From NCBI GenBank assembly GCA_030272585.1, contig BSYQ01000011.1, positions 558,001 through 622,000 on the forward strand: DNA of 64,000 nt, given 5' to 3'. The notes beneath the pieces are model-generated. The model worked only from the letters and a program-made list of their open reading frames with translations, did not search any database and was not told the origin of the DNA. The translations under genes and the position numbers were made by a program. Source of the stretch: Bryopsis sp. KO-2023. Its lineage: Eukaryota; Chlorophyta; Ulvophyceae; Bryopsidales; Bryopsidaceae. Shown piece after piece: positions 3,653-58,968 of the stretch (positions are counted from its first letter, which is position 1; each line of letters starts with the position of its first letter).

Positions 3653-6600
3653 ATGATACTGTTGGAACCGTTCAATATATTCCAGGAATGGGCCCGGCAA
3701 CTTTGCATACGACTCATTTCCCGCGGGGTGGGGGCGGTGGGTCGAACAGCTAAGTCGCTCGGGGACTCTCCACCGCAACCACAGCCGGCACAAACCACAC
3801 AAGGTAAAGCGTTTCGCGTTTCTTGTCATAGTGGTACTATACGGGTCGAACGTGATCGACCGTTTCGTAGCCCCAACGCACGTCTGTCGATCGGACCGGA
3901 GCGGGCGTTCCCTCTCCCGGCGGAATCGCACAAGTCTGCTCATGTATTCTTTATCTTGAATTCTGCCCAACCTGGCGGGGGCTGAAATGGCGGCCATCCT
4001 GAATTTGCTCTGCACCTCCGCGCCGCCCAGAACGCGATTGCATGACTGACTGAGCGATCGAAGGCACATGCCCTACACAAACCCTTGCGTGTGCCTTGTG
4101 GTATTGGGGAAACTCATTTTCGACTTCATGTTTGTTTGGCTCGATTTTATGTTGTATTGCTTTTTTCTGGAAGGCACTGACCATGGCTTGTTTTGGGTTC
4201 TTGCAGCAGAAAATCCTCCATTGTGCAACCACAAGCTCTCCTTCTTTGACGATTTCCGAATCGTCAATGGAGTGCCAGTGTTTGCCCTCAATCCCAACAA
4301 ATGCAGAAAATCCCCCAGCAAACCCACACAGGATTCAAGTTCCAGCGAAGGGGAGGATGCTGCACGAAAAACCACCAAGAACCACATCACTTGTTGTGCC
4401 ATTTCGGCTGATGGTTCGAGGATAGTCTCTGGACACAACGATGGATCAGCCATGATTTGGAGCACTGAGCATGGCACCCTCCTGCACGAAGTCGAACAGC
4501 CGACAAAGCTGTCCGTGATTCCTGACATCCGGTTTCTCGATTGCAGCAATGATGTAGGTGGTAGGTTTCATAAACCAGGCCGCTTTTTTGAACTGAAAGA
4601 GTGGTCGGAACCTCATAACATATTTGGTCGATTGGTGCAGCAAGTGATTTGCCAGACGGTCCATAGTATGCATAGATTCACGCTGATTTTTCTTTTCAAA
4701 TGCTACCGAGGTTGGAATCCCCCTGTAAGGTTGTTCCCTATGCGAATGAGGGACACCAGCCCCAAAAAGAGAGGAATTAATCGAAATTCATGTATCCACG
4801 TTAGAATGTCACTGCTTAGGCTGGATTAAGAACGCCAGTGATGCTGCTGACAGGTTTAGTGAATTTACTCGAGCCACCTCGGAAAAAGAACAGAAAGAAA
4901 CAAATACGGATAGGCCACCAGAACCCAGCCGATATTTGGGAAGCCTCAACGATCCGAAGTGGTTTTTGTTTTTCCCATGAAAAATTACAAACATATACTC
5001 TGATCTGGTTTGAATCGTGTGCTGCAGTGTGGTGCTGAAAGGAGATGCAGTTAATACCCTTATTCAATATTATTGATTAAATAATTATTTTTTATCCAAT
5101 GGGATTGGAACCTCCAAAGAAATTTATTCTTTTTTTTCTTCGGTTTTCCTCCCTTTGGTTATTCTTCTATTACTTCAAACAAAAAAGCTGCTGAACACAG
5201 ACATGATAAGAAAGGGGGAGGAAAATCCGGATAATTTTTTGGGGGGGTACATGCTTTTTTTTATTTTGAACTGTGAGTAAATCTTAACTCAGAATTTTTT
5301 AAACATAAAGGCTACTTGGAAAACTTTCACTTGGTCGAGACTCTCAGAAAAGAGATCAATTGGGATACATGCAGGTATAATGGCAGGGCATCAATTACTG
5401 ACAGGGGTTCAATTCCTGACGAGTGCGAACATGATACTCGTTTTAGACAGCGTAGAAATGTTTCATAACAGATAGATATGATTAGTCTTTTGAATCCAAG
5501 GCTTGGCTGATTTCACAGGGGTTTGTTTCTTTTTCTGCTGCAGATCGTGTTGGCCTGTGATTTGCATGGTGGATTTATGAGGTGGAACGTGAAAGCGGCT
5601 CAGGTCGAGTATGGAGAGTGTGCCCCTAACTGGGATGATATCTCTAACCTCCCCAATTGCAAGCCAATCGCCCGATGCCCCACCTTCTCCAAAGACACCA
5701 CCACCCTGGTTTTTCCGGTGACGTACCTTTCTGTGAAGGACGACATCACTAACGAGTGGGAAACGAAATGCTCGTTCTTTTACTTCGACGCGCAGCAAAC
5801 GCTGGCGAACAGGGATGTAATGGATCCCAAATTGGTGGTGACGACCTCTTCTTTTGAAAACGACTACAAGTGGAGCCTGCTTGGGAATAAATCGGAAGGG
5901 TTGCTGGCGGGATTTGAATCGCGGGCGTCCGGGTTCATGTTTGCTTGGCCGAAAGCTGGTAGGAGCAACCCAGTCAAATTTGAACTCCAAGGGACGATGG
6001 GCTGTTGGTCGCCAGAAGATGACTTCGTTGCTAGTTGGAACATCCCGATTAAGGGGTCTCTGAAGAGAGAGGCCCAGGAATGTTACATCTGGCACAAGGC
6101 CACGGATGAGCGTACCACGCTGGTGGATCCTGAGGGTGGTATTGTCTTTTGGGCGGATTTCATCCCGAATTTGCATGACCGGCTTGGGGTGGCGGCGTGT
6201 GTAGTTCAGAGCGACATGGAAATACTTCTGTGGGAGCTCGAAACGAGCAATGTACTGCATCGATTAAGGACAGACATGACCTACGACATTCCAGCGGACG
6301 TACCGCCTTGGGACGACAGTTGGTTGAATGTGCAGCGCTCGTACAGATTGAGGTCGATTTCCTTGTCGGGGGACGGTCGGTGGCTGGGGGTCTATTGCAA
6401 TGCCGCCAGCAAAGGCCGCGTGTGGGATGTTCGATCCGGGATTGAGGTGTTTAACTTCAGTAACCCTGATGATATGGGAACTCACCTGGATGGAAATATG
6501 CTGGTTGATGTTTTGTTCAGCGAACGAGGGGACAGATTCGTGGTGTGCAGCAAGGAAACGGTCATCGTTTGGCAAACGAACGCCCTTGGCCCCTCACATC

Positions 6601-9600
6601 GTAGTGCCGGCGTCAGCAGACTTGCCTTGAGGAGTGCCGATGACCGTCTTGCCACCGGCCAAGTGCAATGCAAATTCTCTGCGGACGGAAACATGGTTGG
6701 GATGTGCAGGGTGTATTCGACGTTGCTGAGCGTTTGGGATTTGATCGATGGCCGCAGGCAAACACTCATTTTGCCGAGAATCGAGGAATGGGAGGACGTT
6801 TCAGAATTGTCGGAAAAAAACTCAGCGGTGTTCTGCCTGTTTGCGTTCTCTATGGACGGCACAAGAGTGGCGGCGTCGATGGCCGATCTGTCGGTGCATA
6901 TTTGGCATTTAGGGGGTGGTGAAGATGTCATCAGCTCTGCTGTCAGACTCGGGACGACGAGGACCGGCACACTGTCAGCCAAGCGTTTCCCAGCTTGGGC
7001 CATGTGCTTTTCCGTCGACCCCGTGGGGAACGAAATGGTCGTAATGTGTGAGCACAGCGGGAATCTCGTCTGGTTTGGGGTGAACGCCAAGCTGATGGTC
7101 GAAAGAAGGAACGGTTTTGGGCTCCGTCGTGCGAGGTTTGCCCAGGATGGAAGGACTGGTGTCTTGATGGAGAATGATGAGGTGGCGCATATTTGGGATT
7201 TGGTTCACCGTCGTCTGATTCGAAGGGTGGATTTCAATATCAGTTTGGGCCCTGCAGGCCCCATACCGTTTCCACACAACATATCACTGGACGGGAGCTT
7301 TGCGTTCGCAGGGATCGAGAGAGGTGTCGATCCTCTCGATCCTCAGACCCGTTTTGTGACTTGCAGAAACGACAGCACCCAAACCGACCTGGCGAACCTC
7401 CACAAAGTGCCGAGGAACGTTGTGATGACTGACAACCCAGAGTGGGTAGTGGTGGACGAGTTCGTTGACTTGTACTCAGATGTGGGGACGCCTGTTCTCC
7501 CCACATGTCAGCGTTTTGACCCGCCTGCTACCCAGGACGTGTCAGATTCAGGTGCCGTTCGATACCCAGAAGTGGATTTTTTGAGCGAAAACGAAAGCTG
7601 GAGCTACATGTCAAATGTCGGGTCGAGGAAGGAAGAGCATGCCCCCACCGACAGTGTGACCTTATTGCACGTCGGCGGCGCTTATTCCCCCAAAGTACTG
7701 CATGGCAAAGATTTGCTGCCTCACAAGTTCATGGCCACCTCCAGCGATGGCCGGAGGGTTGCTTGCCTTTCGGACGACAATTCGGTGTTCGTCTGGACAG
7801 CATTCGCCACAAAGGGAAGTCTGCCCGCTTGGCAGGACCTGGAGGTCTCGGGGGAATGCAACGATCCAGTGAGAATGAAGGAATTGCTGGAGGAGCACGG
7901 ACCAGCGCTGTTGAATTTCCCGGACCATGAGAAAAAGACGATCCCCATACGTGTCGTCATGAAGCGCGACCATCAAACGCTCGAAACTTTGATGTCTTAT
8001 GCGGTTAAAAACGGCATTTTGGTGAATCTGATTTGTGCGGCTTCAGCGGAAGGGGAGGGCAGTTCGAAGACTGTCGCAGCTCTAAAACTGGCGCTGAAAT
8101 CACGTGCGTTGGAGTGTGTGGAGGTAAGCATGAGAACGAGCATTGACGGGCTTCGTTGAAGTTTGATTTGTCTGTCTGTTTCTTTTCAGTATGCAAGTTT
8201 TAACGAGGTCGCTTACCGAATCAATACCTATTCTTCGATGCCATAAATCGTGGTGATATTGCCATAAGGAGTCAAACATATGCATATGCAGCATATGCTT
8301 TGCCATTCGATCTTTATGATGGATCAATGATCCAAACCAACATGTATATACCTTATACCATATACATATATATATATATAAGGTGTGGTTCCAGCTTTTC
8401 GTGAACGGATAGTTTTCGGTCTGGCAGATCCTCCTGAACTACCTGCCGGAAGGCTTGACGACGCCCGTGGCCACAGCGGATATTTACAAGATGTCCATCA
8501 ACAAGCTCTCCAGGGTGTTTCCCACCGCGTTTCACAGGGTGTTGAGCGAAAACTTCATGGTTCGGGACCTCCCTGACATCCTCGTTCCAGAGAACACGTT
8601 TTGGAATCGTCCATTCGAAGTTATGACGTCGAATATGCTGACGCCGTCGATGGAGTTGCTCGAACACATGTGGAACGAGAGGTTGGAAATCGACGGAGCT
8701 TCGTCCTACAAGAACAAAATGATTCGAGCCTACCCCAAGGTGGTGCTGTATCCAGGGGTCGCCGATGTGGGAATGAAAGGTTTGTTGAAACAGATCGCAC
8801 TCCGCCAGCCCACTTCGGACCACAGTCCAATATACTCCTCGCTGGCCATACGAGCGATCATCCGCCAGAAATGGACGGCTTACGGACGGAGCATCTTGAT
8901 TGAGGAGATGGCGAGTTTTACGCTCCAGTGGCTGACTTTCACGGTTTTTGCGATCTTTTTGGGGAGCGTGTGGGACTTGGTGACGATCAAGGATTTTACC
9001 TCGGATATGTCGGACAGGCATTTTGAATCCAAAGAAGTGGGTCGGAACATTGCGGCGGCCGCCTGTCTGACGCTGTCTTGGATTCTGAGCGTGTTCAGCC
9101 TCGCTCGTGAAATGAATCGGCTGATTGATCTGGTGATGGAGAGCAAACTCAGGGGCTTGGTGTATTGGATGGGGTCGTTCTGGAATTGGCTGGATCTGAC
9201 CACACACCTGCTTCTGGTTTTGTGCATTGGGCCCCTGTATGTTTTTATCGCATCGTCAGGGCGACATTCTGACGATTCTAATCATGCTGATGATCCTTTT
9301 GCCACATATGACTATGACCGCCACCTCACGAGTCAAGAAGGCCAAAAGAGGTTGACGATTCTGGTTTGCCTGGTGTCCATTCTGCTGTCCTGGAAAACGT
9401 TGCATTTTGCTCAGGCTTTCCGATGGACAGCCCCCATGGTGTTGATGATATTCGAAACCATGAAGTCCATTTCTGTGTTCCTGGGCATCACCTTCGGCCT
9501 GGTTTTCGGATTTGCAATTGCATTTTTCGTTCTGTTCCGGGTCGAAATGCAAAAGCCAGGAACGCTAGATATGACAGACGAGGACAAGGACGAATTTGAT

Positions 9601-11218
9601 AGTAAGAATGTTAAGAATTTCCTCTCCATCCGTCAATTCTGACACTCGCTTTTTAGCCAGCACGAATCACATATTCTTCCACAGCATCTAAACCCTCCCC
9701 GCCCCCCCCCCTCAACGTCAATTTCTGTTCTTATTTTTCTTTCCTTACATTTGCAGGGTTTTTGGATGTTATTTTTGTGTTTGTTTCTTTCTTGGTGAAT
9801 TGGTGGTGTTCTATTGCAGAGGTCCAGAACAGGTTTGGCAACCTTTGGTTGTCGATGGTCACCGCTTTCAGAATGATGCTCGGAGAAACACAGCTGGACA
9901 GGCTATCCATTTTTGACACCAAAATGAGGATCGTTGGCACAATCATGTTCATAGTATACTTGCTTGCCAGCATGGTGATCTTGTTGAATTTGCTCATTGC
10001 TGTCATGGGGGACAGTTTTGATCAAGTCAAGAGTTTGGAGGTTCGCCACTTTCACAAGGTAACGTATTGCTCCCCGGAAAAAATGTCGTTTGGCGAAAAC
10101 TTTCGCACGTTGCTTGTTTCAGCTGGAAATTTCAGTTTTCAGGTTTTTTTGAGGTCACCCAACGAAGAAAAGGCCCATTGCAGCACATTTGTGAGGAATG
10201 TCGAATTGCTATATAAATAATGCAATCATTATTTATCATTATATATATACAGGGGAGAGCACAGGTAATGATAGACCTGGAGCTGATGATGTCCAGACAC
10301 CGGCGAAGAGTATGCAGGTACAATCGAATTTAAAAAATCGTCAGAGAACTTCAACATAGAATCGTGCATTAAAAACTTTATGCAACAAGGCAAACAAAAC
10401 AGCTCGGATCCCTCCACACAACTCTCCCCCCCCCCAAAAAAAAAGGAAAATAGTAATAATGATAAATTGATTTAGATCAGTTTTCCATTTAGCATTCGAT
10501 GGCCACGCGGTGCTCTTTTTTGGGACCATTTGAAAATGGATTTCTCATCGTGTTTTTCCATTTCGATTTTTCTCCCGGGTATTGATGCCTCATTTGTGGT
10601 GGTTCGCGTTATAAAACCAAAAAAATAAGTAAAACAATTTCCAGAAACCGCCGTGTTTTTTTGTTTCTGAAAAGCCCTGGTTTTGGTTTTTCAGCGACAA
10701 GGTTGAGCGATATGTCCATGTACTGATGCCTGACAAACGCCATCAAGGCGATGCGGCTGAGCAAAACGAACTTTTCGAGTGAGACAATGATTTTGTTTTT
10801 TCTTTCTTTCCGGTTTGCGTGTCGTTTGTGAAACATTCTAACAAAAAAAAGAAGAATAGAACGCAGTTTTGCAAGGCTTTTCTCGTTCTGTTAAAAAATA
10901 ATAGTGAGGTTCTTTTTTGGCACCAGGGTTGCAATGATTTCGATCCAGGATTGGCTAGTCGTTGGCCCGTTTTGTTGTGGTTGATTTAGTTACTTTACTT
11001 CTTCTGTTGATTTGTTTGTACAATTTTGTATTTGTTGCTGATTTGGTGATGTTGAATCAAGGGAATCAATGGGAAATTTGATGTCTGAAATGAGGGGGGT
11101 GAAGGCCGTGCTGGAAGTCAACGGTTTCAATGTGCCGGAGCATCGCAGAACCGTCACAGGTTTAAGAAACGCTCCCACATATCCATCCGGTTTAAATTTT
11201 GGATGCCATTATTGTTAG
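3653..11218 (+). CDS. WD40-repeat TRP-type cation channel, paralogue A
   Basis: Eight exons give about 1,597 aa: 3653-3803, 4210-4553, 5544-8123, 8428-9601, 9820-10058, 10253-10317, 10695-10778 and 11062-11218. All phases agree and the total is a multiple of three. Residues ~50-950 contain many WD-type blade ends (LLWELE, RVWDVRSG, HIWDLVHRR, FVWTAFA). A short helical, ankyrin-like stretch follows (~960-1040). Six hydrophobic helices then lie near 1185-1210, 1235-1255, 1280-1305, 1335-1357, 1373-1395 and 1452-1478. The pore loop FGNLW..MMLGE sits near 1421-1438 and S6 ends NLLIAVMGDSF, typical of TRPV/TRPA-like channels. The inferred role is a membrane cation channel gated or scaffolded through its cytosolic propeller. 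Exon 1 is the weakest call, resting on a phase-1 GTAAAG donor. The acceptor at 4207-4209 could add one codon. The last exon might instead splice at a GTTTAA donor after 11160. The neighbouring gene is a paralogue. Confidence 0.8.
8366..8380. repeat. (AT)n microsatellite in intron 3 of channel A
   Basis: A short alternating AT run directly upstream of the acceptor region for the transmembrane exon. It is simple sequence with no other feature. Confidence 0.8.
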
Positions 11219-13307
11219 TGAAAATTTTCCACATATTATTAACTCATCCCAAGAAATAGGACCCCCCAGACGATGTTCAAAAAGTGAAGTCTTGGATTCT
11301 ACACTCCCAAACAAACGAAAACAAACAAATCTGCTCAGTTCAAATATGGTGATCAGGTTCTCAATGGACCATTCTGTTGGACACCGAAAAAGCCTGCGGG
11401 GCTTTCCAAAAACACACAGTACCTTTTACACGTCTACAAATAGACGATCAGGAGAAAAAGCCTGGGAAAAACACAGCCTGTACCCGCAAACTAGAGTGTT
11501 ATAGAGAAGAAAAGTTCGATTTGAAAAGCCAAATTTGTTTTCCCCCATTGAATTATAGTGGTGGATGCTCTAGTGGGTGCCCATCCTTATTTTTTACCTG
11601 TACGCATCTACTGTAAAAACTGAAAATATAGTTTACTATAAAATGTTAAGTGATAAATGATAAGTGGACCTCCCACTTTGCACACACTTCCCCCGATGTG
11701 TGTGATTTATTACTTTTACTTTCACCAGTAGATTTAAAATAGAATTATTATTTCAATATAGATATACATGTCTATGTTTACCTCTTTTTTTTCCAATAAA
11801 TGGACGGCATGCCAGGCGGTGCCCCCGATATTAGCTGCTACAAACACGCGTTTCTCATGTCGAAGATTTGACTCCCCTCGGACAGTCAGCTAACTTTAGA
11901 GCTTGTTCCTTCCCGATTGTTGAATATCAATCAAATAAAAAATATAATGTATAGTTTGCTGAAAGCCCTACGTAGCCTGTCCACTTATGTGCAATACAGC
12001 ACTTCTGCCTGTTGTTTATTTTTGATTGTTTTTCTGCAGAGTCCATGGGCTACTCTTTTCGGTCGGTGCGATGATCGTTTGATGGGGTGAGAAGCAGGGA
12101 AGAGGGACTATTTGGGGAAAAAAATAGGTTCACTTAGCTCTGGAATATCTTTGTTTTCATAAAAAGTTTTCACAATCATAGAGATACGCCCCCCACCCCC
12201 TTGAGTGTGCAGTGCACTCAAGGAGGTCGTCTATAGGGACATTGAGAATGGGGTTTGCTCTTTCTGAATAATTCAAACATAAAAAACAAGTTGTGAGGGT
12301 AGGGGGATTTTTTTAATTTTCCCGTTTTTTTTTTCCACTTTTTTTTGTTGCGGTTGGATAAAAGTTTTTAGAAGGAAGGTTTTTTTTTTTATTGCGATAT
12401 TTTGGCGCATTATTGAAAGACATATATTTGGCTTGCAGCCATCGATTCAGAATTAAGGGTTGAGAATGATGGATTCTATTTCTATTGTATGTTGCTGATC
12501 TCAACGATTCAATGAACAATGGTACAAGGGATATTTTTGTGGTATTTAAGGGTGTTAATTTTTCTACCAATAAGGGGGGGCATTCGAACACATTTGGACG
12601 GGGAGGGATGGGCCCCTATCACTCACTTGTATAGAGGGTGGGTTTTGTTTGTTTGTTTGATTGATTGATTTAAAAAACAGAAAAAAACACCAGCTTTGGT
12701 CGCGACAGGCTCCTCGACATAATCTCCTGAAAATTGACATTTTCCATCCCAATTTTGAGAAGCTGTGAGTTGTGGTCTGTGCATTTGCTCTCTGTTAGGA
12801 TGATTCGAAAATTCATATTTGAAGTCATATTGAAATGGATCCCATAGTCATAGCTTCTATAGCTCACCAACTTTGGAACATTTTCCAAGCGCTGCAAAAA
12901 AAAGGCCTGAAAGTTCCAGAAAACAATATTTCTTTCAAGTGTTCTGATGATGTGTGGAGAATGCAGCTTTCACCGTAGACCATCCTTCATACAGAACAAA
13001 TCTATCTTGGGCTCCTGACCTTTGGCAATTGATCAGTCGAGCCCGATGCTGGTCGTCCCCTCCCCTATCTTATCCCTTGGGTGAATATCATCAAGAGTGA
13101 TTTTTACAATCAACACCCAAGCATGCACTAAATAAAACCATTGCATCCTTCCAAATGTACACAGCTGACAGAGTCAGGAGGTTTCACTAGTGTTTGCCTG
13201 ATTGTCTAGAGATTTTGTTTTCGATTAATCCAAAGCTGGTGTACCACCAGGATGTCTCAAGGGTGAAGGGCAATTGGACGATTTTCGCAATGGCCTTTGG
13301 CGTCCCC
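11219..13307. other. Intergenic between the two channel genes
   Basis: AT-rich, with candidate polyadenylation motifs (AATAAA near 11796 and 11935) that could end transcripts of channel A. There are poly-A, poly-T and (GTTT)n tracts near 12340-12400 and 12640-12670. Short frames here have no splice partner or known motif. I see no gene. Confidence 0.5.
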
Positions 13308-13640
13308 ACCAGTGTATTTTTTTTTGGCATTGTGGCCCTTTTGCCCCATTTTGGCCCCCCAAAAAATCAGAAAAAATCAGAATGGCAAATTTTGGGGCCA
13401 CAAAAGGGCCACATTCACCCGAAGTTTGTAAAGCCTGGGCCACATCCAAGAAATCAATCGAGTTTCGGCAAAAATCAAAACCAACAACATTAAGTAAATG
13501 CTATATAAACACCAAGCCTTGTAATTTCTGTTTTTGGCCACATTCTATTTTTTTTCGGTCAAATTGGGGCCACAAAAGTGCCAACGGCCAAATTTAGGGC
13601 CACTTTGAGGCCAGTGAATTTGAAAAAAAAATACACTGGT
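13308..13640. mobile_element. MITE-like element with terminal inverted repeats
   Basis: The left end ACCAGTGTATTTTTTTTT is matched by its reverse complement at the right end (AAAAAAAAATACACTGGT), about 18 bp per side. CCCC abuts both ends and could be a 4-bp target duplication. The ~330-bp interior repeats the motif GGCCACAAAA in both orientations and has no coding potential. This fits a non-autonomous DNA transposon. I cannot name the family. It ends 45 bp upstream of the proposed first codon of channel B. Confidence 0.6.
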
Positions 13641-13685
13641 CCCCACGCGCAGGAAGGATATCTTAATTACAGTTCCGTTTGCAGG

Positions 13686-16600
13686 ATGTCGTTGGAGATG
13701 CTCTTACTAACCACCAACGCCAAACGAGGTAAGCGTTACTAAAGGGTTCGTGTTTTGCTGAGACAAACATGTTGGAAAGCCCTGTCGAGCGTTTGTACTC
13801 AGAAATCATCCGGTTCGACACCCTTACTCGACTAAAATGCGGTCTCCACAAACGAGAGAGCAAGAAGTGTGACGCCGTGATGTCCAACAGGGCTTCGTCT
13901 TGATTGCGCCAGCCACGGATGCACGCGCCGCGTTGCGCGAGGTGGTGAAGCCCGTGTAGCAGTGTGGTTTTCGGTGGATACTTGGACGAGTGTTAATATC
14001 CATGTTGCTCAACTTCGCCAACGAGTTCGTGGAGCTCCTCAGGCAGTGCTGGGTCGATTTCGCTCTCTGGGTCGCGGGTACCTGCCAGCATGTCGTTCGT
14101 TGGCGTGCAATACGATTTGCACAAAAGGTTAGACTGGACGTGAACCTTGGGAGCCTATCCAGAGGTAGGAGGTGTTAGCTCTGGACGTCGACTGTGGCTT
14201 TTCTCGGGTTAGGATTGTATGTCAAGGTCCGGAGTTCCACGAGGTTTATTTGCGTTGAGCCTCCGACACAAGTGTTTTATGCACTGATCTATTTGTGGTG
14301 GGCTTGCGAAGACTGGAGCATGAATAATGGTTGTTTGCGTCACAGAAAATCCTGGTCTATCCGCTTCCAGCCTATCATTCTATGATGATTTTCATGTCAT
14401 CTCTGGCATTCCTGCTTTCTTTCTGGATCCTGACAGAGGCAAACCCATCGAGGAGCAACTCTCCCCTCAGGAATCGCTGGAAAATCGACCAACATTGCAA
14501 AAAATCACTTTCTATGAGAACAAGAATGCCATCACCTGCTGCAATTTCTCAGTCGATGGGTAAGGAGATGATGTTGCCAGGACTTGCTCTGGGGGCGAGC
14601 AGTTGGACCCCAGCCCCCAACCCCTTTTTTCATCTAAGGATGCAGTGTCAATAGGAAACTGAGTCAGACTGGTTTGCTGTGAAACAGCACCACCAGTCAA
14701 TCGGAAAGGGGCGTTCTGAGGATTTTCAGGTTTAAATGATATATCCTTGCTGACATCTACTGGTGCTTATAGGTCAAGGATGGCATCTGGGCATGACAAC
14801 GGTACAGCAATGATGTGGAGCACAGAACATGGGGCCTTGCTGTGCGAAAAACAACTTCATGAGTTGTCCCCAGTGGCAGACATTCGATTCCTGCAGGACA
14901 AACTCACGGTATATTAATTGCAACTGCCCTCCCCTACGTTTCCCCCCACTCACATCCACTTTCTGCGATCAAACCATTAATATTTTTGTGGTTTTGCTCG
15001 AACAGACGGTCCTGTCGTGTGATTTCTATGGAGATTGCGTTGTGTGGGAAACCAGCGGGCCGTCCAAGGCAATGGTTTTGATTAACTGCACTGCACACTG
15101 GCAAAGCCACCTGAACTTGGCTCCTGAAGTTCGATGGCCATTTTTTTCCAGCGATGCAACAAAATTGGTGTATCCAGTTACTTCCTTTCACGACCTGAGC
15201 GACCATTACGCCCCAAGGGACACCACGTCTGACCCGGAGCTTTCCAGACGCAAGTTGATGTTTGTTCAGAAGTGCTCTCTATATTTTTTCGACATCAGCA
15301 TTGCCACTTCGACGAAAAGAAGACAGCATCAGAAGCCACTTTCAGTGCTGTCAGTTGCAGCTGGGGAATTCCAAACAGATTTCCAGTTCACCGGCGGCTG
15401 GTTCTCAAACTCTCACAAGAGCATCGTTGCTGGATTCAGTGCCTCACCCTATGGGTTTTTGGTCTTCTGGCCAGACATTTACGACCCCTCTGGACTTGAG
15501 TATGAACTCCAAGGCACAGCCGCTTGCTGGTCCCCCAAGGACGACTGCATTGCCACTTGGTATGTCGGGGCAGGCTCCTCCACAAGGGCAAGCAACTGCT
15601 ATTTGTGGTGGATAGGAGCACTGGCAGACCCAATGAATTGCGGTTTCGGTGAAACTGGCTCCAGGAGAAGGACAGCGCTCAATCCTATGGTGTTGAGAGA
15701 TCATGATGGGGGGAGCATCGTCTGGGCCAAATTTATCCCAAATGTGCATGGGGAGCTTGGCATCGTGACCTGCATAATAGGGAGGGAGCTGGAAGTGATC
15801 CTCTGGGACATACAATTGAAGGTAGCTTTGTACAAGTTGTCAACCGGAATAAGCTGGGATGAGACCCGAATCAATGACAGGCAAGCATGGGATTCTCACT
15901 GGGTGCATGTCAAGCGTGCGTATGGTTTACAGCCACTGGATGCTTCGGCTGATGGGAAATGGTTGGGGCTCTTCTCTGCAGATACAAACAAAGGGTTCAT
16001 ATGGGATGCGACGTCCGGCCTGCAAGTGCTCCAATTCAGCGCTCCAGAAGAGAGGCTCAAAAACCCAGAGGGTGTCCCTCTTCAGATGGACTTCCATTTT
16101 TCCCCCTCCGGCAGCCATTTTGCCTTGTGCAATGAAGAGAACGGGATCGTGTGGCTTCCACAGAACCTGGCCCAATCGAGGGAGAAGCATGGGGTCAACA
16201 TTCTGGCTTCTCACAGCACAGATGAGTTCATTGCTTGGGGTCATGTGGCATGCAAGTTCTCGCTGGATGGGGAGACAGTCGCAATGTGCCGGTCCTACTC
16301 ACTGGAGCTGGACATTTGGGCGTTAAAAACCGGGCTGCGGTGCACACTCTCACGCAGTGTTCAGAGCTTTGAGGAAGGGGACGCTTCGATTCGAGTGACG
16401 AAAGAAAGCAGGAGGCACATTCGCTCGCTGCACCATTTGATGAGGGTTTCCATGGCATCATCTTTACCAGATGGCAATGCGAGCTCGAGTGGGTCAAGAT
16501 TCTGTACTTTTGGGCTGTCCCCTGATGGCCGTCAAATCGTGACATGTATGGCAGATTTATCGGTTCTGGTTTGGACGCTGTCCAGAGATGAAGCCTGTCT

Positions 16601-19600
16601 GGCCAAGTTTAAGCAGGTTGGGGTTCTGAACAGTAAATACCACCCTGCATGGGCAGTTTGCTTCTCCAAAGATCGGAGTGGGGACGACACGGTCGTGGTC
16701 TGTGAAGATACTGGAGCGCTGGTGTGGATCCATATTAACACTGGAGTGAAGGTTGGTAGGCGCCATGGGGGGGGGTTGAAGCGGTGCCAATTCAGTGCTG
16801 ATGGAGCGAGGGGTGCATTGATGGATTCAGAGCATAGGGTGAACATTTGGGACTTGGTTGCCAGGTCAAAAATCCAGACCATCGATTGGCATCTTTGGCT
16901 CGGTCCAAGTGGTAGGATCCCCTTTCCACACAATGTGTCGATGGGTGGTGACTTCGCGTTTGTTGGGATCAAAAAAGGTGTCCATTTGAATTCGACGGAA
17001 GGTTTCGTGGTTTGCAATCCTGACACGACAGAGGAAGACCTTGCCGACCTCGAAATGGTGCCCCAAAACATCCATATGGCAGAGAACTCGCGATTCGTGG
17101 TGGTAGACAAGTTTGTCGACATCCAAAGAAAGGGGGTCAATTCTGGAAAGGTGCATTTGCCTACTCACGGGCTTCAGGTCGATGATGGAAGAGCAATGGG
17201 CTTTTCCCTTGAACCAGGGTCAATCATGGATGATCTGACCATGGGGGCATCTGAGATTCGTGATGAAAATCGACAAGGAATGGAAGCAACATCTACTAGC
17301 GTAGCTTCGGATCGGCATACTCACAGGGAGTTTGTTACGGCCCAAGAAAGGGCTGAAGCGATTGGGGAAAGTGCTGCGGAAGTACGATACCCTGATTTTG
17401 ACATGTGCGCAGATGAGGCGTGGGAATACTTGCTCGAGACGGGTAGCTCTCAAACAACCGACAGTCTGATGGTTCTGGATGTGACAGGGAGGGCAGCACC
17501 GAAAATATTGAAGGGGAAGAATCTGATGCCTCACAGGTTCATTTCGATTTCCCCCGATGGACGTCGGGTTGCTTGTCTTTCTGAAGATGGTCGATTGTTT
17601 GTGTGGAATGCATTTGCTACTGATGGGTGCTTGCCCGATTGGCATCATCTGGAGCTCGGCCAGTCTTCCAGCGAGAAGGAAATGATCGAGCTGCTTGAAA
17701 GACATGGACCTGGCATTCTGAATTACCCTGACAATGGCCATATTACAATCCCTATGCATGCGATCTACAAAAGGAGGCATTTGATGCTGGAGTGCATGGT
17801 CAATTGGGCCGTAAGGAACAGGGTGGCGATGTCTTTGGTGTGTGCCAGTGGAGGCGACAGAGAGGGGCTCATTACAGCGTTGGACGTTGCTGTAGCCCGC
17901 AGATCTCCGGAGTGCGCTGAGGTAGGATCCAAATAAGTCTAAGAGGGGCGTTTGTTTTCTGCTTTACCACGCCTTTATGCTGTGTGGTGTTCAACTGGTG
18001 AAACCTTTTGTGGGTTTTTCTTTCACAGATTCTGCTGGAGCATCTGCCACGGGGGTTAACAACAAACCTGGGGACCACTATTGTGTACAAGAAATCGCTG
18101 CTATTTCTGTTCAAGACTTACCCGAGTGCTTTCTTGAGGGTCATGGCCAGCGACAAGCTGTTCATGGACTTGCCCCACATCATGGTTCCTGAGAGCACGT
18201 TCCGGGAATGGGCTTTCAAGGTCACCACCTTTGATACTCTGATGCCAACCCAGAAAGCGCTCCAAGACATGTGGCTGAAAACTTTGATGAAGAGCCGGAA
18301 GATTGATTTCAGTGGCCAAGCAGATGGGGCAAAGATGATCGTCGCTGTGCCCAGAGTGATTCCCTATCCAGACATCGCGCAAACTGGGATGAAAGGGTTC
18401 CTTAAGCCCTTAATGAAACGTGGAGTCAGCAACGAGGTTTTCTCCTCGTTCGCCATTCGGGCAATCATACACTGTCAATGGAAGAGCTTCGGGCGGAGGC
18501 TATTGATGGAGGAATTATGGCATTTCGCGACGCTGTGGGTTCTGTTCACCTCTTATGCGATCGTGTTGGGGAACCTATGGAGTTTGATGTCTTTGAGTAA
18601 CCCAAGCCTCTTCAGTGCAGCAGACTTGAGCACCCGGCATCAAAACCAGGCGGCTGCAACTTTACTCACACTAGCTTGGATCCTGGGGCTTCTCGGCCTC
18701 GTGAAGGAGTTGGCCAGAATCGTTAGCATGTGGAGAGAAGATGGGTTTTGGGGACTGTTGCGATGGCTCAAGTCGACGTGGAGATGGGTGGATGTAGGAG
18801 CTTACGCTCTTCTGGTGATCTTAATTGGCCCAATGCACTTTAACATCGTCACAGGCAATCAAGAAACTATTGATGGACGGGCGCAGTCCAGCACCAGCCA
18901 AAACAGGCTCACCGTCGTGGTGTGCACAGAATCCATCCTCCTCTCCTGGAAAATGCTTCGTTATGCCCAAGGCTTCGCATCCACTGCTCCGATGGTCATC
19001 ATGATCAGGGAAATCGTAAAGGAGATTCTGACCTTCCTGATGCTGGCGTTTGGGCTGATGTTCGGGTTTGCCATTGCGTTTTTTGTCTTGTTTCGTGTCA
19101 CCATACACAAGCCTTGCACTGATCCAGAGATAGAAAATGAGTTGTCGGCAGGGGATCGCCCAGAATCTGAAAAGCTGGACCTAAGTTCTGGGGTTTTGGA
19201 GTGCATCGAAGATAAGGAAGGTGGGGAAAAACTCGAATAACTGTAGGATTCCCTCATCCTTGATACGAATCTGTCCCCTCGTCCAAAGGCCAAGTTTAAT
19301 GTATGATAGGTTAAAATCCTCAGCTACACCCGCAATCGTATTTAGTGTGGGTTTTTTAACAGTATTACCCCAGTAATGATACAAGCCACACCAATTCATG
19401 GAAGTCCAAAACGTTAACAAGACTCGGAAATACACATTATTTCTGTTTTCTGAAATTTCTGCTGTTTACAGAAATAGTGTACGTTACAATAAACACGATC
19501 AAGGGTGTACCCTGTTCAACTCTGCAAAAGAAGTCCTACTTTCGACGTGCCTATTATATTCTTGTGTTTCCCCCCCCTGAGCCCAACATTGAAGGCTAGC

Positions 19601-21138
19601 GTTTTCCTGCAGAATCCATTCAGCTGTTTGGAAACGTGTGGCTGTCCATGTTGAGCTCTTTCGGAATGATGTTGGGGGAAACGAAGCTGGATGCATTGTC
19701 TGCCCTGGATGGATCTCTTCGTTTCATCGGCACGATTATGTTCGTGACGTATTTGCTGGCAATCATGGTCATCCTTCTCAATCTGCTGATCGCTGTCATG
19801 GGCGACAGCTTCGAAAAAGTCAAAGCAACCCAGGACATCCAAATCCAAAAGGTCGGAATGTTGCGCAACCTCAGTTATTCAGAATCTTTGTTGGTTTACT
19901 ACCCACGACCTGAAATCAGTTCACCTCCCTGACTAATAGATGTACCAAGAATGTCCTGGAATGCTTCTGTTGTGCTGTGATGTATGAACCCATTGTCCAT
20001 GTCACTGTGACGAACAGATCCGAATTCGGAACAAGTGTTTCAGGTTGTTTTGAACTGGGATTGCCTTTTTTCTGCAGGGAAGGGCAGAAGTGATGCAAGA
20101 CACCGAAGATATGATGTCACGTCGGAAGCAAAAGCTATGCAGGTGTGGAAAGAGTGGAATGTTTTGCACATACACCAAACATGGGCAAAACTGTCACTTG
20201 TAGGTCGAGAACTTCATCCTTATAAATCTGTAAGTGAAAATCAAGATATTTATCTGTGTGTGTGTGTCATTAATGTTTTTCCTGGTGTGGCAGCAAACAA
20301 ATTGGGCAGTATCTCCATGTGATCGTGCCTCTTCATACAAAAGCCCAAAATCGATCCAGGGAGTGGAAAGGAAGGCTTGTGGAGCAGAAGCTTTTTTTCC
20401 AGTGAGTAGTGTTTTTTTTCCCTGCGAAAGAAAAAAATAACAGGTCGAATCAAAGAGAAAAAACAACAGGTCGAGTAAAAGAGGGACAAACTGGGGAAAG
20501 GATACAAGTGTTGCATTGATTTTAAGAAAAAAATGTTTTTTTCTGCTCTGTGGGATCATGGCTGGTTTGAAAATGTGGCTCTGTCAGTTGTGACGTGGGA
20601 ATGACTAAACATTGAATCATCGGTTCCTTGGAACGCGAAGTGCTGTTGGCGTTAGTATGGGAGTGGAAAATCCATTCTTTCTTTTGATTTTTATTATACA
20701 GTTTTTACTTCTTTTTATTTTTTCATGGTGTTCAGTTTCTGTGCTCTGTGATAACAGGAAAGAATTGGCAAACCTGCGCAGGGATATCAAGTCTGACATG
20801 GATGAGCGATACACACAAATGATGAACTCGTTCAAAATGAACGGGATGCAAGTTGCTCAAGGATCCACGTCGTCAACAGGTCGATGTTTTTTTTAACCCT
20901 TCTGTTTTACGGCTAAACATAGCCCCCGTCCAAAGGAAATCAAGTTCTGCCGAAGAGTTTTTGTATGCTGAAATCCGGTCGAATTTGTTGAATGATGCAC
21001 ATGCAGTTTGGCTAATTATCAGGATTTTCTTGCTTTGCAGAGGTGGCTGTTCCAGACATAGGAAGCTATCATGAAGTGGTGGAAAGAATCCTTGGAGACG
21101 ACGAGACAGTCACCAGCCACCCTTCGTCCATTGCATGA
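13686..21138 (+). CDS. WD40-repeat TRP-type cation channel, paralogue B
   Basis: Ten exons give about 1,710 aa: 13686-13728, 14346-14559, 14773-14908, 15006-17921, 18029-19220, 19613-19851, 20078-20142, 20294-20401, 20758-20879 and 21041-21138. All phases close. The architecture matches paralogue A. A WD40 region carries blade ends VILWDI, FIWDATSG, NIWDLVARS and LFVWNAFA. An ankyrin-like linker (DVAVARRSPECAEILLE) follows, spanning the exon 4/5 join. Then come six membrane helices, pore FGNVW..MMLGE, and S6 with NLLIAVMGDSF. The tail has charged, coiled-coil-like helices (KELANLRRDIKSDMDERY). The pore exon and the next exon are the same length as in A (239 and 65 nt). B has an extra intron at the DG/SR codons that A lacks, and its WD40 exon is 336 nt longer. 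Exon 1 is a tentative 43-nt exon with a GTAAGC donor. An alternative start is the in-frame ATG at 14327. Confidence 0.8.
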
Positions 21139-27334: not shown

Positions 27335-41786
<14,452 letters not shown>

Positions 41787-42657: not shown

Positions 42658-43264
42658 GTTTGCTTTGAAGGAATAGGATGGGGGTTTCCCCCCCTGTTTT
42701 CTGGCTTTTCACAGTGCAACATCAAGCAGAATAGGGAGAAGGGGTGCTTCATGAAACTCTCGTTGTTTTTCGATCCACCGAAAAAGGAGGGGCTGCCAGA
42801 AAATTAGTTTGGAGGAATTTCCTAGAAAGTCAGTCTGCCAGTCTCGACATCTCAGCCTCAAACGGAGGCATTGCAGCCCAGACTTGATCAGATAGAACGT
42901 GGGTCTGACTGGAAGACCAGACCGGCGGCGGAGTCAGTTTGTTCGAATTTTGCTCTGGTTGGGTGTTCTCACTTGTGTGTGTTCTGCTGTTGGTTGAATT
43001 GGATAACAACAAAAGGAAGACTGGGCAATTCGATTTCAAATGAAAACACAAGAAGAAGAAGACGCAAGAAGGAGAATTTTTACAGCTAGCCCACCATCAA
43101 ACAACAAACTCTATCCCACCATCCCCACATATCAATGCTAAGGAAAATTTGCTAAAAGCCAGTACTACAGTCTAGTGCAGTTTTTCAAACACTGCCCCCT
43201 CCAGTCCAAACTCCGAAGCCCACCAAAACAGAACCCCTTTTTTTTTTTTTTTGAAAAAACGAAG

Positions 43265-43702
43265 CTACACCTTTCGACGCTTGTTCCTGCCCTGTCTGGG
43301 CTCCGAGTTTTCTTCACCAGCAACGTAAACGACGGAAATGGTCCTTTTTTTTCGGAATCTCTGCAGCTCATCCTCGGAATACACCTTTCCTTTCCTCTCC
43401 CCTTTTGAATGCAAGGCGACGGGCACGGAAACGTGGCCTGCGAAGCGCAAAGACGTCGGCTTTTTTTCAGTCGGCAGGCCAGCAGGGGATTCTTTTTTTT
43501 CCTCGCTTCCCTTTTTGACGTTCGCTTCCGTCTTTACCGGAGTCGGAGCCGGCGTGGACGACCAAAGCGCGAAAAGTCCCGCCAAGCTCGTCGGCGGTGG
43601 CGGTGGAGGTGGCGGAGTCGCACTCGGTTCCTCCGGGATCGTCACCAGGCTCTGCTCGTATGTCTTGGTGCGGTACGTCAGGATTCTGTTCCTTCTCGGC
43701 AT
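43265..43702 (-). CDS. Basic proline-rich protein, putatively nuclear, unit 1
   Basis: A single exon of 145 aa. It starts MPRRNRILTYRTKTYEQ, has a run of eight prolines near residue 35, an Ala/Pro/Thr-rich middle, a Lys/Glu-rich segment, and ends with a basic cluster (RQGRNKRRKV) that looks like a nuclear localisation signal. The frame is open 48 codons further upstream, but I chose this ATG because the promoter-like TATATA/CACGTG lies about 130 bp before it and the upstream translation looks non-coding. All three array copies encode the same protein. The family is not recognised; the segment YSEDELQRFRKKRTISV could be a short linear motif. Confidence 0.6.
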   Translation of the reverse strand: MPRRNRILTYRTKTYEQSLVTIPEEPSATPPPPPPPPTSLAGLFALWSSTPAPTPVKTEANVKKGSEEKKESPAGLPTEKKPTSLRFAGHVSVPVALHSKGERKGKVYSEDELQRFRKKRTISVVYVAGEENSEPRQGRNKRRKV

Positions 43703-43830
43703 GTTTCTCGCGGTGTTTCGGCAGGTTCGCAGTTTGGGTCGACGACGGAAAAGAAAAGGCTCGAAAAAAACGAAAGAAAGGCTCGAAAGGTGTGTTCGCA
43801 GGTGTGGCACGCAACGAAAAACAAGGCGCC

Positions 43831-43842
43831 TATATACACGTG
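43831..43842 (-). promoter_or_regulatory. TATA box next to a CACGTG E-box, unit 1
   Basis: On the minus strand CACGTG runs directly into TATATA, about 130 bp before the ATG of the 145-aa gene. A basic-helix-loop-helix site touching a TATA box is a plausible core promoter. The same motif pair is present in all three units. Confidence 0.4.
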
Positions 43843-45418
43843 ACACGATTCAGGAATCTGTCGTACGACGCGGCGGCGAATTGACAGAAACATCGAAATC
43901 TGGATGACGGACGTACGGACATGCATCAACACATCCGGAAATCCGCCAAATACAAGTGGTTTTTACATCACCAAATTCACTGAAATTAATTGTCTTTTAA
44001 CAATATGCTATCTTCGAATTAACAAAGTCCTCTCTGAAATCATGATTCCATATCGAATGTTGTTGGTTCTACTCAGCCTGAGTGACTCAGGTCTATTCTT
44101 CACTCGAAGAAATTCAATTTGTGGCAATTCTCCTCCACAATGTAATTTGATGTTTGTTTGTTTGTTCTTCACTCGATGCTCGATTAAAGTTTTGGTTTGG
44201 ATTGACAGTGGCTTGGTAGAATGATGAGTCACAAAGTCTGACGCTCTGTTGGTGATGAACCCATAATTCCTTTGTTTTTGGAAGGAAAGATTTCCTTGTG
44301 CAGCAACAATTCATTAATTACATTATGAAGACAGTACTAGAATAATTGTACATCATGATTAAACCCACAGCAAATATCATCCGTAGCTTCCTTCATCCTT
44401 GAAATAAAGGAAAAAAAAACAAAAAAAACTGTGACCCTGATTTAGGGAGATCACACTTGAGAAAGGTTCACAATCCAAAAAACAGAAGAAGAAAAAAAAA
44501 TCATTCTGGCAGTATTCTGTTACCAAAAGCAACAGAATGCATATTTCATTTAAATGATCTAAAATTTTGAATTTTAATCAATTTTTGTTTTTAAATTTAA
44601 GCAATGCTGGAAAGCTCTTTTCGAGGGCAGCCGAGTTTTCGAAACCAAGACTTGAACAAGCTGGTGCCAACGGCTGTCCATCCACGTAGGGCATGTATCG
44701 TCAATCGGTGTGGCGTCCGAGGGAATATCAGCAAAGAGAAGCAAACGTGGGTGTTTTTTGATGTGGAAACTCGACAATGACGGGCTTCGATTCTTTCTCA
44801 ATGCCTGTTTTTGAGTTTGGAGGTCAGATTGCTGGGTTCTGATTTGGCTGATAGGTGGGTTCATCCGGCGATTTTTCCCCGACTTGTTCCCGTCTCAATT
44901 CACGACCAGACGACAAAACATGATGATAAGGTGAGTAGATCTGCCAGGTTCAAAGCCTTCGATCAAACGAACAAAGAAATCACTCACTCACTTGGGTGTC
45001 AGAAGCCAACAATCACATTCACCGAAACTTCAAAACAAAACCGGCCCCAGAACGTAAGCGAAACATTGCAACCCCTCCCCAAAAGGGAGAGTATCAAAGG
45101 GAAAGGCTGGTTCAGTACAGGTAGGATGTCTTGCGTCAAAAATTGATGGCGGCTCGAAATCGAGCGGAGGAGGCTGAAAGAAGAGGCTGAGCTGGTGGTG
45201 GCCGCCAATGAAGTGTTGGCAGCCTGGGAGGATGAAATCTGAGTGGGATGTATCAGGGTTGGTCGATTGTTTCTATTTCATGTGGGGGCGGGGGGAGGGG
45301 AATCCCCAGGGAATATAGGCTGTTCGAATTTTGAGATGCTGTGGAACACATCTCAGCGACCAGATCTTCCGTTTTCTTTTTTTCACTTTCATTTTTTTTC
45401 TATTTTGTAACGCTGCAG
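43843..45418. other. Unassigned stretch upstream of the protease exons, unit 1
   Basis: The unit 3 breakpoint lies near 44581 in this stretch. Short frames exist on both strands: plus 44604-44780, and minus 44864-44574 ending LKTKID. A charged C-terminal-looking tail at 45165-45241 on the plus strand ends AAWEDEI. None forms a supported gene. I could not find a signal-peptide exon for the downstream protease here. The equivalent in unit 2 is 52696-54271. Confidence 0.4.
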
Positions 45419-46681
45419 GGGCGCACAGTAATTGTTGGCACGAAAGCTTGAGCCCCTTCGAAGGCAAAATCGCTGTAAGTTCTGGCAACTTGCCAATCCC
45501 ACCCAAGAAACTGGGCGGCACCGTGGATGGAATCATTCCTAAGGGAAGCCTTACGTAAAATCTCAGCCCCATCCTCTAACTACCCCACAAGCATTCTCCA
45601 CCATGCCACCTTACAGTGCATTACACCACTTTCTTGCCCTTATTTTTTCTTGAGTAAAATTTGTGATGGGTTGTTTGTTCGCTCCAGGGTGGCAAAGATG
45701 TTGTTTTTGGGAGGTACCCCTACATGTGCAGTTTGCGGAGCGAGCCTGGCAACACAGGCAGCTCGCATTTTTGTGGAGGGACCTTGATTAACAAGGACTG
45801 GGTTCTTACGGCTGCCCATTGCGTCGTGGATCGAAATGGAGCCGAAACCACCACCTTATACATATCGTGTGGATTGACCCACACAGACGATGCAGAAACG
45901 GAGGTCGGTGCCCTGTGGATGCTTGGTGCTCCATCCATGATCTCCTGGCTGCAATAAAGTGCATTTTTACGTCTTCTTTTTTTTTTTTTTGCTGGTTGTT
46001 GTAAAGGAGAAGCCCCCCGATATCTGTTTGGATATCCATTGAGACGGGTTGCATTCACCTTGCACCCCATCATTGGAATTGTGGAAAGCAAAAAATTGGA
46101 ATCGTGGGTAATAGGCCCAAAACAAGAAAACACCAAACCATTGTTCCATCATACTGCCATTGTTTGTGTGTTTTTAGAGGGAAAAAAACGACGACAGATA
46201 TTGGATGTTGTGGATCAAGACCTGTATATACATATATATATTACATACAACACCTCACGCACTTCATTTTGCATCCATGCTTGTTTTAAAACGTTTTTCT
46301 CTGTTCTTCTTCTTCAGGAATTCACCTCTTGCCATGTGATTTACCACGACAAGTTCAATTTCAGGAAGCTAAATGATGGCTTCGACATCGCTCTGGTTCA
46401 GTTGAGCAGATCCAGCGACGAGGTTCCATGCAAGGTCGAAGAAAAAGACATGGTGGAGCTCGAACACAACGGGAGAAGCAAGGTCGGGAGTGTAAGAACC
46501 ATGGGCTGGGGGTTGAACGAGAAAGGACAGAGCGCCAAAATACTGCAACAGCTGGACCTCGATTTGATGCGACCGCTGGCTTGTGCGAGGAAATTTGGTG
46601 TTGATTCCTCGTCCATGGCCAGAATTTTCCGGCAGAACAAGTCTATTTGTGGCCACAAGGATGGTGCTGATACGTGCCAAG
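45419..46681 (+). pseudogene. Truncated trypsin-like protease, unit 1
   Basis: Three exons (45419-45474, 45688-45903 and 46318-46681) join in phase 0. The first carries the zymogen activation site GK/IA, continued as [13 protein letters not shown] in the second. The His-57 motif is intact (WVLTAAHC). The Asp-102 motif is intact (FDIALVQL). The S1-pocket aspartate is present in DTCQ, which predicts cleavage after Lys/Arg. The third exon ends at the first base of the codon that should open GDSGGP, with a GTACCC donor. No GDSGGP-coding exon occurs in the ~535 bp before the minus-strand gene begins, nor elsewhere in the unit that I can see. No signal-peptide exon is recognisable upstream, although the first exon needs a phase-1 donor. 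Both ends therefore seem missing. Exon 2 uses an atypical GTCGGT donor. Confidence 0.7.
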
Positions 46682-47216
46682 GTACCCTCTGGATCCGCTG
46701 CATTTTTAAGATATCTGTATATATATTGAATCGAATTTTACACACACGGTCAATCCGCTCAGTACCATATGCATTGGTGACATGCTTGATTTTGGGGGAG
46801 CATAATTTCTATGATTTCTTCTGGGAATGCCCATGCAATTCTGGTCAACATTTTTTCTGGAGATTATCGACCTCTTAGTTCACCAGGTTTCTTCTTGAGT
46901 CAACCTAAAACACATTTCGGTGAACGAGCTGCACTCGGCCTACTTTATATAAATATGCATATTTTCTTTCTTTTTTTTTGGGGGGGTGGGGTAAAGGGGG
47001 AAAATAAGATTAAGTTTTATTAAAGTACTGGGCATTTTTCTTCTTCTTCTTCTTCTGTCGATTGTAGAATTGAATGAGAATGACCCACCCTGGAATTATA
47101 CAGTTCAGGAAACACCACAAGAATAGGAAGCCTGGCAAAATACCGTATTTTCAGTGACTGAATGTATATGTATATAAGTGCACCCCTTTTTCCAACGCAC
47201 AGTTGTTTCCTTGCAG
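46682..47216. other. Stretch between protease and secreted gene; no coding exon
   Basis: I searched it for an exon encoding the protease Ser-195 motif and found none. It holds a G-run, a (TTC)n tract near 47038-47055 and AT-rich sequence. The equivalent in unit 2 is 55534-56068. Confidence 0.5.
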
Positions 47217-47906
47217 TCACGTGAAGGCAATTTTCCCCTCGTTTCCATCCAGCCCTTGATACCCCACAAGCTTGACGTTATCGCCAAAGTCGAGGACTTC
47301 TTTCCCATCTTTCTTCTCCAGATTGATGCTGAAGTATGCACCGTGGGTCGGCTCACGACTTTGCAGGAGACTCCGCCCTCTGATCTGTGCTGATGTGGCG
47401 GCCGAAACGTCCGCACTTGGATCCTGCACAACGCTTTGTTAAATCCAAGGCGGCTAGGCACCCCAATAAAAATGCTGGGAGAAATTTGAAGCTAGTTTCA
47501 AGCTTGTTAAGCATCCTACCTCGTCTCCAGGAATTTCATACGCGATGGAAATGTTCAGAGCATATTTCTTGGTGAATATGGGCAGCACGATTGGTACCTG
47601 AAGAGAATCCCCACATCCGGTCAATTTCAATTCAAACAACAGGGAAAGGGAAGCAGTTTGTCGCTAGGATTCGTTGAATTTGTCACAGGATCGACACCAC
47701 CTAGAACCAAGCACACGAAAGTGGTCGTGATGAAATCGGGAGCCACAAGAGGACTCAAGGATGCACCTTTCCGTTGTGATTCTCATCGCGTCAGCAACTT
47801 TTCAACTTTTTTTTTGGATCATCGAAATCGATGGCACACCTGATTCAAGCGCCGAGCACACAACGCCGAACAAGATCACGGCTGCGGCACTTCTCATCGA
47901 TGCCAT
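47217..47906 (-). CDS. Putative small secreted protein, unit 1
   Basis: Minus strand. The first exon, 47906-47840, encodes a signal peptide (MASMRSAAAVILFGVVCSA) and ends in phase 1 before GTGTGC. The last two exons are firm. One ends at 47520 before GTAGGA and encodes VPIVLPIFTKKYALN and IAYEIPGDE. The other, 47423-47217, runs from DPSADVSAATSAQIRG through EPTHGAYFSINLEKKDG to KIAFT and TGA. The middle join is unresolved: a frame opening near 47770 (ASLSPLVAPDF) suits exon 1, but its phase does not match the VPIVLP exon, so a short exon or a sequence change is being missed. The alternation of hydrophobic and polar residues suggests a beta-sandwich secreted domain, but I do not recognise the family. 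Confidence 0.5.
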
Positions 47907-49710: not shown

Positions 49711-49846
49711 CTGAAACACAATTAAGCACATGTTAGTATGCTGGTTGGGAACTGACTTGATCAATTGAAGAACAAGATGATATTGTTGTTTGATTAACGT
49801 GAGCTTCAACTCACAGCCACCGACTGGAGGCTGTCGGTCGACAGAG

Positions 49847-50074: not shown

Positions 50075-50117
50075 CGTGTTCTATTCTATCATAATATATA
50101 TATGTATGGTTCAAGTC

Positions 50118-52555: not shown

Positions 52556-52683
52556 GTTTCTCGCGGTGTTTCGGCAGGTTCGCAGTTTGGGTCGACGACG
52601 GAAAAGAAAAGGCTCGAAAAAAACGAAAGAAAGGCTCGAAAGGTGTGTTCGCAGGTGTGGCACGCAACGAAAAACAAGGCGCC

Positions 52684-52695
52684 TATATACACGTG
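52684..52695 (-). promoter_or_regulatory. TATA box next to a CACGTG E-box, unit 2
   Basis: Same motif pair and spacing as in unit 1. Confidence 0.4.
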
Positions 52696-58925: not shown

Positions 58926-58968
58926 CGTGTTCTATTCTATCATAATATATATATGTATGGTTCAAGTC

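Follow-up and report, generated by a model that had tools for sequence, protein, structure and literature searches.

What protein is encoded when WD40 repeats and a TRP-type ion channel lie next to each other on one strand, and what might the repeats do for the channel? Two neighbouring genes raise this question in a stretch of 64,000 nucleotides of the green alga Bryopsis sp. KO-2023 (assembly GCA_030272585.1, BSYQ01000011.1, contig 11, 558001-622000), referred to here as the window. The gene models run from the ATG of gene 1 at 3653 to the stop codon of gene 2 at 21136-21138. They fit the extent 3653..21138 given in a preliminary description of the window, and the in-frame models and domain matches bear out its reading of adjacent same-strand WD40 and TRP-type channel fusion genes. 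Each predicted protein has, in order, an N-terminal helix, a WD40-repeat region, a short ankyrin-like or linker stretch, a TRP-type channel and a tail.

Gene models and the case for a fusion

Gene 1 extends from 3653 to about 11160 and is predicted to encode about 1600 residues in 8 exons plus one uncertain last exon; gene 2, at 14002-21138 on the same strand, is predicted to encode 1750 residues in 10 exons (Table 1). All 16 introns in the two models are of the GT-AG type (7/7 in gene 1, 9/9 in gene 2), and the joined exons are in frame. Propeller matches fall in the long open frames 5511-8159 (882 codons) and 14814-17936 (1040 codons), and Ion_trans matches in the frames 8413-9642, 9657-10220, 18002-19240 and 19600-19932. 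When each protein was aligned to the other gene's sequence with a purpose-written spliced aligner (cross-alignment), 12 of the 16 introns were recovered exactly: six of seven in gene 1, where the first was missed, and six of nine in gene 2, where the first and last were missed. By BLAST, residues 52-1558 of gene 1 align with residues 55-1689 of gene 2 at 37.7% identity. The intron separating the WD40 and channel parts is only 107 bases long in gene 2.

The same arrangement recurs elsewhere in the genome, where 12 further paralogues (A-K, M) were modelled from the WD40 region to transmembrane segment S6. A WD40 match lies upstream of a channel match on the same strand at 14/14 loci, the window pair included. 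In paralogue M, part of the last repeat and the ankyrin-like part share a single exon with the linker and the region before S1; A has everything between the linker and S6 in one exon, and H everything from before S1 to S6. Trees of the WD40 half and of the channel half both place gene 1 with A and then B, I with M, and J with K, then H, then G, with F next to those; C stands beside gene 2 in the channel tree (0.884) and apart from it in the WD40 tree. Comparison of gene 1 with A, the one measurable pair, points to constraint on both halves, with a nonsynonymous rate (dN) of 0.322, a synonymous rate (dS) of 1.6 and dN/dS of ~0.20 for the WD40 half, and 0.305, 1.19 and ~0.26 for the channel half (dS exceeded 2 or could not be measured in the three remaining pairs). 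The models of G, H, I, J, K and M were built from distant queries and will hold errors, and one exon of G, at C9:1824362-1824671, is doubtful. The first exon is missing from the models of C, D, G, H, I, J, K and M. Paralogue I is omitted from alignment A1, and I, K, M and some exons of others from alignment A2.

Because the trees of the two halves are largely congruent, single exons of paralogues reach across the junctions and, in the pair of gene 1 and A, each half shows constraint, the WD40-TRP fusion is, as judged from sequence, real and old. The largely congruent trees and bridging exons, together with the short junction intron in gene 2, make separate transcripts for the two parts unlikely. 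That an adjoining WD40 gene and channel gene were wrongly joined across an intergenic gap is highly improbable: the gene models were built from DNA sequence, those of the paralogues presuppose one order and none of the 14 carries the last repeat and S6 in one exon, but the independent matches keep order and strand at every one of the 14 loci, and the trees, exons and intron just described all speak for one gene.

Table 1. Predicted exons of the two fusion genes, in window coordinates
Feature	Position	Strand	Basis
Gene 1 exon 1, N-terminal amphipathic helix (by eye)	3653..3803	+	model; missed by cross-alignment; similar exon in A, B, E, F
Gene 1 exon 2, PPL..LSFFDDF..GVPVF motif and first WD40 repeat	4207..4553	+	PF00400 27.8 bits; donor 4553 recovered by cross-alignment, acceptor not
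Gene 1 exon 3, WD40 region, then beginning of ankyrin-like stretch	5544..8123	+	propeller matches; model and cross-alignment
Gene 1 exon 4, linker, S1 to S5	8428..9601	+	Ion_trans 4.1e-5, 23.3 bits, below cut-off; model and cross-alignment
Gene 1 exon 5, pore helix, MLGE filter, S6 (NLLIAVMGDSF)	9820..10058	+	Ion_trans 2.0e-8; model and cross-alignment
Gene 1 exon 6, TRP-helix-like segment	10253..10317	+	model and cross-alignment
Gene 1 exon 7, C-terminal tail	10695..10778	+	model and cross-alignment
Gene 1 exon 8, C-terminal tail	11062..11159	+	cross-alignment donor at 11159; model read on to 11219
Gene 1 possible further last exon, uncertain	near 11254-11342	+	
Gene 2 exon 1, N-terminal helix	14002..14164	+	model; missed by cross-alignment
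Gene 2 exon 2, conserved N-motif, then beginning of first WD40 repeat	14346..14559	+	model; donor recovered by cross-alignment
Gene 2 exon 3, first WD40 repeat, running into the second	14773..14908	+	model, cross-alignment, repeat profile
Gene 2 exon 4, remaining WD40 region, then beginning of ankyrin-like stretch	15006..17921	+	propeller matches; ends recovered by cross-alignment
Gene 2 exon 5, linker, S1 to S5	18029..19220	+	Ion_trans 6.1e-6, 26 bits; TRPV matches; donor unsure (19192 by cross-alignment)
Gene 2 exon 6, pore helix, MLGE filter, S6	19613..19851	+	Ion_trans 6.3e-11; acceptor 19624 by cross-alignment
Gene 2 exon 7, TRP-helix-like segment	20078..20142	+	model and cross-alignment
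Gene 2 exon 8, C-terminal tail	20294..20401	+	model and cross-alignment
Gene 2 exon 9, helical, coiled-coil-like tail (by eye)	20758..20879	+	model; acceptor recovered by cross-alignment
Gene 2 exon 10, C-terminus and stop codon	21041..21138	+	model only

The N-terminal exon (3653-3803 and 14002-14164, and in A, B, E and F) encodes, by eye, a hydrophobic or amphipathic helix between basic residues, which is perhaps an anchor lying on the membrane. Variants of the motif PPL....LSFFDDF.VI.GVPVF directly precede the first WD40 repeat in 13/14 modelled proteins, I being the exception.

Channel, linker and WD40 array

The channel half carries the Ion_trans domain (PF00520) of the TRP superfamily, which scores 34.1 and 42.4 bits in the two pore frames against a cut-off of 25 bits; the frame 18002-19240 scores 26, and 8413-9642 falls below the cut-off at 23.3. 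Across the family, Ion_trans and TIGR00870 trp each match 25/28 channel pieces of alignment A1, TIGR00870 staying below its cut-off in the member displayed. Exon 5 of gene 2, taken by itself, matches TRPV2, TRPV5 and TRPV6 at expectation (E) values of ~0.001-0.01. Among the best 60 of 259 matches of the channel family profile to the PDB, TRPV3 comes first (9.8e-23) and TRPA1 second (1.8e-22), and Inactive, OSM-9-like, TRPV1, TRPV5, TRPV6 and TRPV4 are also present. The alignment with TRPV3 covers profile positions 134-436 (303 positions), with the pore helix and filter registering on LFKLTIGLGDL and the end of S6 on NMLIALMGE; no Trp stands at the TRP-box place in this alignment. At the place of GLGD, all 14 proteins carry the acidic filter expected of TRPV-type G-x-G-D pores, as LGE in ten (gene 1, gene 2, A-F, I, M) and as LGD in four (G, H, J, K). 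The S6 end reads LLNLLIA[VI]MG in 13/14 and ILNLLIAVMG in K, and is followed by a conserved helix-like stretch; NLLIAVMGDSF, picked out in the preliminary description, is present in both window proteins.

The stretch from the last repeat to S1 has little similarity to known families. A Pfam scan of the open frames of the window found no ankyrin domain even with E allowed up to 1. Within the family, Ank_5 matches 2/15 linker pieces (alignment A4, 15 pieces; best E 2.8e-4), and 66 positions of the linker profile weakly match part of the TRPV3 ankyrin domain (E 0.002). The label of an ankyrin-like linker, proposed earlier, is fair, but the signal behind it is faint. The ankyrin domain of TRPV channels consists of six repeats, and no N-terminal domain of this kind was found in the algal proteins. 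By profile, then, the channel is TRPV-like and lacks the six-ankyrin domain of TRPV. The earlier remark that the N-terminus resembles neither the ankyrin repeats nor the MHR domains of animal TRPs agrees with the WD40 and TRP-type fusion.

The WD40-repeat region is ~800-930 residues long, with repeat matches at residues 112-923 in gene 1 and 118-1044 in gene 2, a correction to the ~900-1,000 residues estimated in the preliminary description. In the HMM search which that description proposed, Ion_trans passed in both pore frames and PF00400 narrowly, at 27.8 vs 27 bits, in the frame containing gene 1 exon 2, but the propeller models, and PF00400 itself, stayed below their cut-offs in both large frames. 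Of the family's 18 WD40 pieces, 11 are hit by the WDR3 propeller model and 11 by that of THOC3, seven by PF00400 (best 1.1e-11), and four and one by the two EML models. The WD40 profile finds WD40 proteins, Apaf-1, WDR5 and 2ymu (E 1.2e-34) in the PDB. A repeat profile marks six WD-like positions in 14/14 proteins, which are not independent because the same six chosen repeats seeded it, and further positions in 11, 7 and 4 of 14, often with near-zero scores. Judged from its length, the array probably forms two beta-propellers. Hydropathy detects no membrane segment in the WD40 half, except one each in G, I and M.

Two other proposals about the array were set aside. A by-eye count of ~14 or 15 repeat units in gene 2 was not confirmed by the repeat profile. 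The fused protein might also have been ADF1 (TRP) joined to ADF3/FAP16 (WD40), which is not favoured, since the repeats are not specifically EML-like and the three matches in the genome to HELP, an EML marker, all lie away from the fusion loci.

The gene family and its genomic setting

The assembly comprises 91.1 Mb in 28 contigs and contains 98 Ion_trans matches. Genome-wide searches returned 25 matches with the channel exon and 36 with the WD40 exon. In addition to the modelled genes, loci O (C11:4381k) and P (C14:1095k) have a WD40 signal upstream of the channel (E 3.7e-13 and 1.2e-12), bringing the signal to 16 of the 18 loci examined; a further weak channel match lies beyond these, at C14:1296k. 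By these sequence matches the family has spread to at least 16 loci in Bryopsis. Paralogues A and B lie in tandem ~140 kb upstream of the window pair on the same contig. Gene 1 is closest to A (57% identity) and gene 2 to C (51%), and the two share 41% with each other; the tandem pair is therefore not a recent duplication. The genes are a tandem pair in being adjacent and on one strand, as the preliminary description had it, but they are not each other's closest relatives.

The same description had hinted at early-diverging fungi, which is at odds with a light-harvesting protein match. A 100-residue piece is 99/100 identical to Bry-Lhcb1 (PDB 8hlv), and likewise matches 9k7v chain 1 and 9jzr chain d, which points to a Bryopsis-like green alga; this placement from sequence draws on one light-harvesting gene. 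We take PDB 8hlv to be from Bryopsis corticulans. The genome has 107 matches to the chlorophyll a/b-binding family. Light-harvesting gene pairs with equal or near-equal scores lie on opposite strands of one contig at C1:10975211/10984518, C9:482708/551333 and C6:2994370/3073000, which suggests recent inverted duplications.

Elsewhere in the window, exons of the spliceosomal gene PRP8 lie on the + strand at 32385-41412 and in neighbouring exons (PROCN 1.2e-126, PRP8_domainIV 2.1e-73, PROCT 1.3e-38). Positions 42658-62283 hold a tandem repeat with a period of ~8.85 kb and 99.9% identity over 10.8 kb, which is either a very recent duplication or an assembly effect. It carries trypsin-like open frames at 45958-46878 (Trypsin 8.8e-7) and, as a second copy, within 54645-55730.

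Proposed function and known systems

We prefer the reading that these genes encode TRPV-like cation channels that are calcium-permeable and controlled through their propellers by a docked partner, and our confidence in it is evenly divided. One gene would supply one subunit, with the cytosolic N-terminal WD40 array joined through a shortened ankyrin-like linker to S1-S6. From the homology of the channel part, a tetramer with an acidic, calcium-passing filter is expected: four subunits would form a pore with a ring of LG[E/D], through which calcium and other cations would pass. The N-terminal half looks like a protein-docking surface, and the propellers would most likely be the sensing arm at which a cytosolic partner docks. 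In TRPV channels the ankyrin domain and linker relay signals to the pore; here the docked partner, acting through the linker, would set the opening or the placement of the channel. With at least 16 loci, the members may serve different cues, such as wounding, turgor, light or those of flagellate gametes.

A number of results weigh against this reading. TRPA1 fits the channel profile nearly as well as TRPV3 (1.8e-22 and 9.8e-23), and the number of segments that hydropathy alone finds in the channel half varies between 4 and 7. In the two large frames the top propeller models, with E 2.8e-7 and 8.1e-10, miss their curated cut-offs; the 2ymu match consists mostly of one repeat matched many times plus one longer stretch, and is no fold match; and the seeding of the repeat profile and its near-zero scores weaken any count of the blades. 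Cross-alignment put three false introns in the large exon of gene 2, where this gene has insertions, and placed its S5-pore intron at 19192/19624, vs 19220/19613 in the model. Paralogue E joins A, B and gene 1 in the WD40 tree (0.963), yet in the channel tree it falls among the distant members (0.949), through exchange between paralogues or a tree artefact. The related channels N (C8:4448k) and Q (C6:6547k) have no WD40 match within ~5 kb upstream (best E 2.5 and 0.96), the propeller being either lost or too diverged to see. Two observations on these loci may be added: E occupies C3:7198433-7205132, and N and Q belong to the same channel clade and possess the linker.

The architecture may instead be ordinary and widespread in green algae or fungi and merely uncommented, to which we assign a little less than an even chance. 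WD40-ion-transport proteins of early-diverging fungi, to which the preliminary description also points, would fit this explanation. Full-text literature searches, through titles and abstract starts and with many subscription papers outside their coverage, found no description of a WD40-TRP fusion, and 'WD40' is absent from the main text of PMC9266709, PMC9242649 and PMC11085791; this silence counts little against a widespread architecture, as eukaryotic sequence collections lay outside the search. Viral, bacterial/archaeal and phage collections yielded no relative (no pattern match; no match; 49 and 336 pattern matches, 0 confirmed by tblastn), alignment A1 being too variable for use on them.

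The chief rival on function, somewhat unlikely in our judgement, gives the propellers mainly a part in assembly, trafficking or anchoring, for example by tethering the channel to the cytoskeleton, the flagellar transition zone or a vesicle coat, with no gating of the pore. Scaffolding is the most frequent role of WD40 arrays, and the constraint on both halves is compatible with a gating or a scaffold role; against this explanation, the repeats fit WDR3 and THOC3 models more widely than EML ones, and the HELP matches are located elsewhere in the genome.

The family, with at least 16 TRPV-like genes that have an unusual front end, provides candidates for calcium entry in siphonous macroalgae, and the fusion may explain calcium entry on sensing in giant-celled marine green seaweeds. 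TRP channels are absent from land plants and many are found in green algae (PMC11085791). Inhibitors implicate TRP channels in the ulvophyte Ulva compressa, although its genome paper states that their genes were not identified (PMC9266709). A bolder proposal strikes us as distinctly doubtful: that siphonous green algae have a TRP subfamily of their own, whose TRPV-like channels bear a double WD40 propeller in place of most of the ankyrin domain, as a partner-operated gate, and that at least 16 genes supply the calcium entry behind wounding, regeneration and electrical signalling.

Among known systems, crTRP1 of Chlamydomonas reinhardtii is likewise a TRP channel from a green alga and also has a linker and N-terminal domains in the cytosol; it does not appear in the best 60 of 259 PDB matches of the channel family profile. 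WD40 proteins, whether multi-propeller (PDB 2ymu, Apaf-1, EML/FAP16) or with a single propeller (WDR5), share WD-repeat sequence motifs with the algal proteins, whose repeats, unlike those of the multi-propeller proteins, are degenerate and interrupted by long insertions. To our knowledge, none of these carries a channel. The closest likeness is to the TRPV channels (TRPV3, TRPV1, TRPV5/6, Inactive and OSM-9-like), which have in common with the algal proteins the pore helix, the acidic filter, the S4-S5 stretch and the LLN.LIA.MG end of S6. The N-terminus is ankyrin in those channels, whereas the algal proteins carry a WD40 array; they would be an example from nature of a TRP channel in which a propeller seems to have taken the place of the ankyrin sensor.

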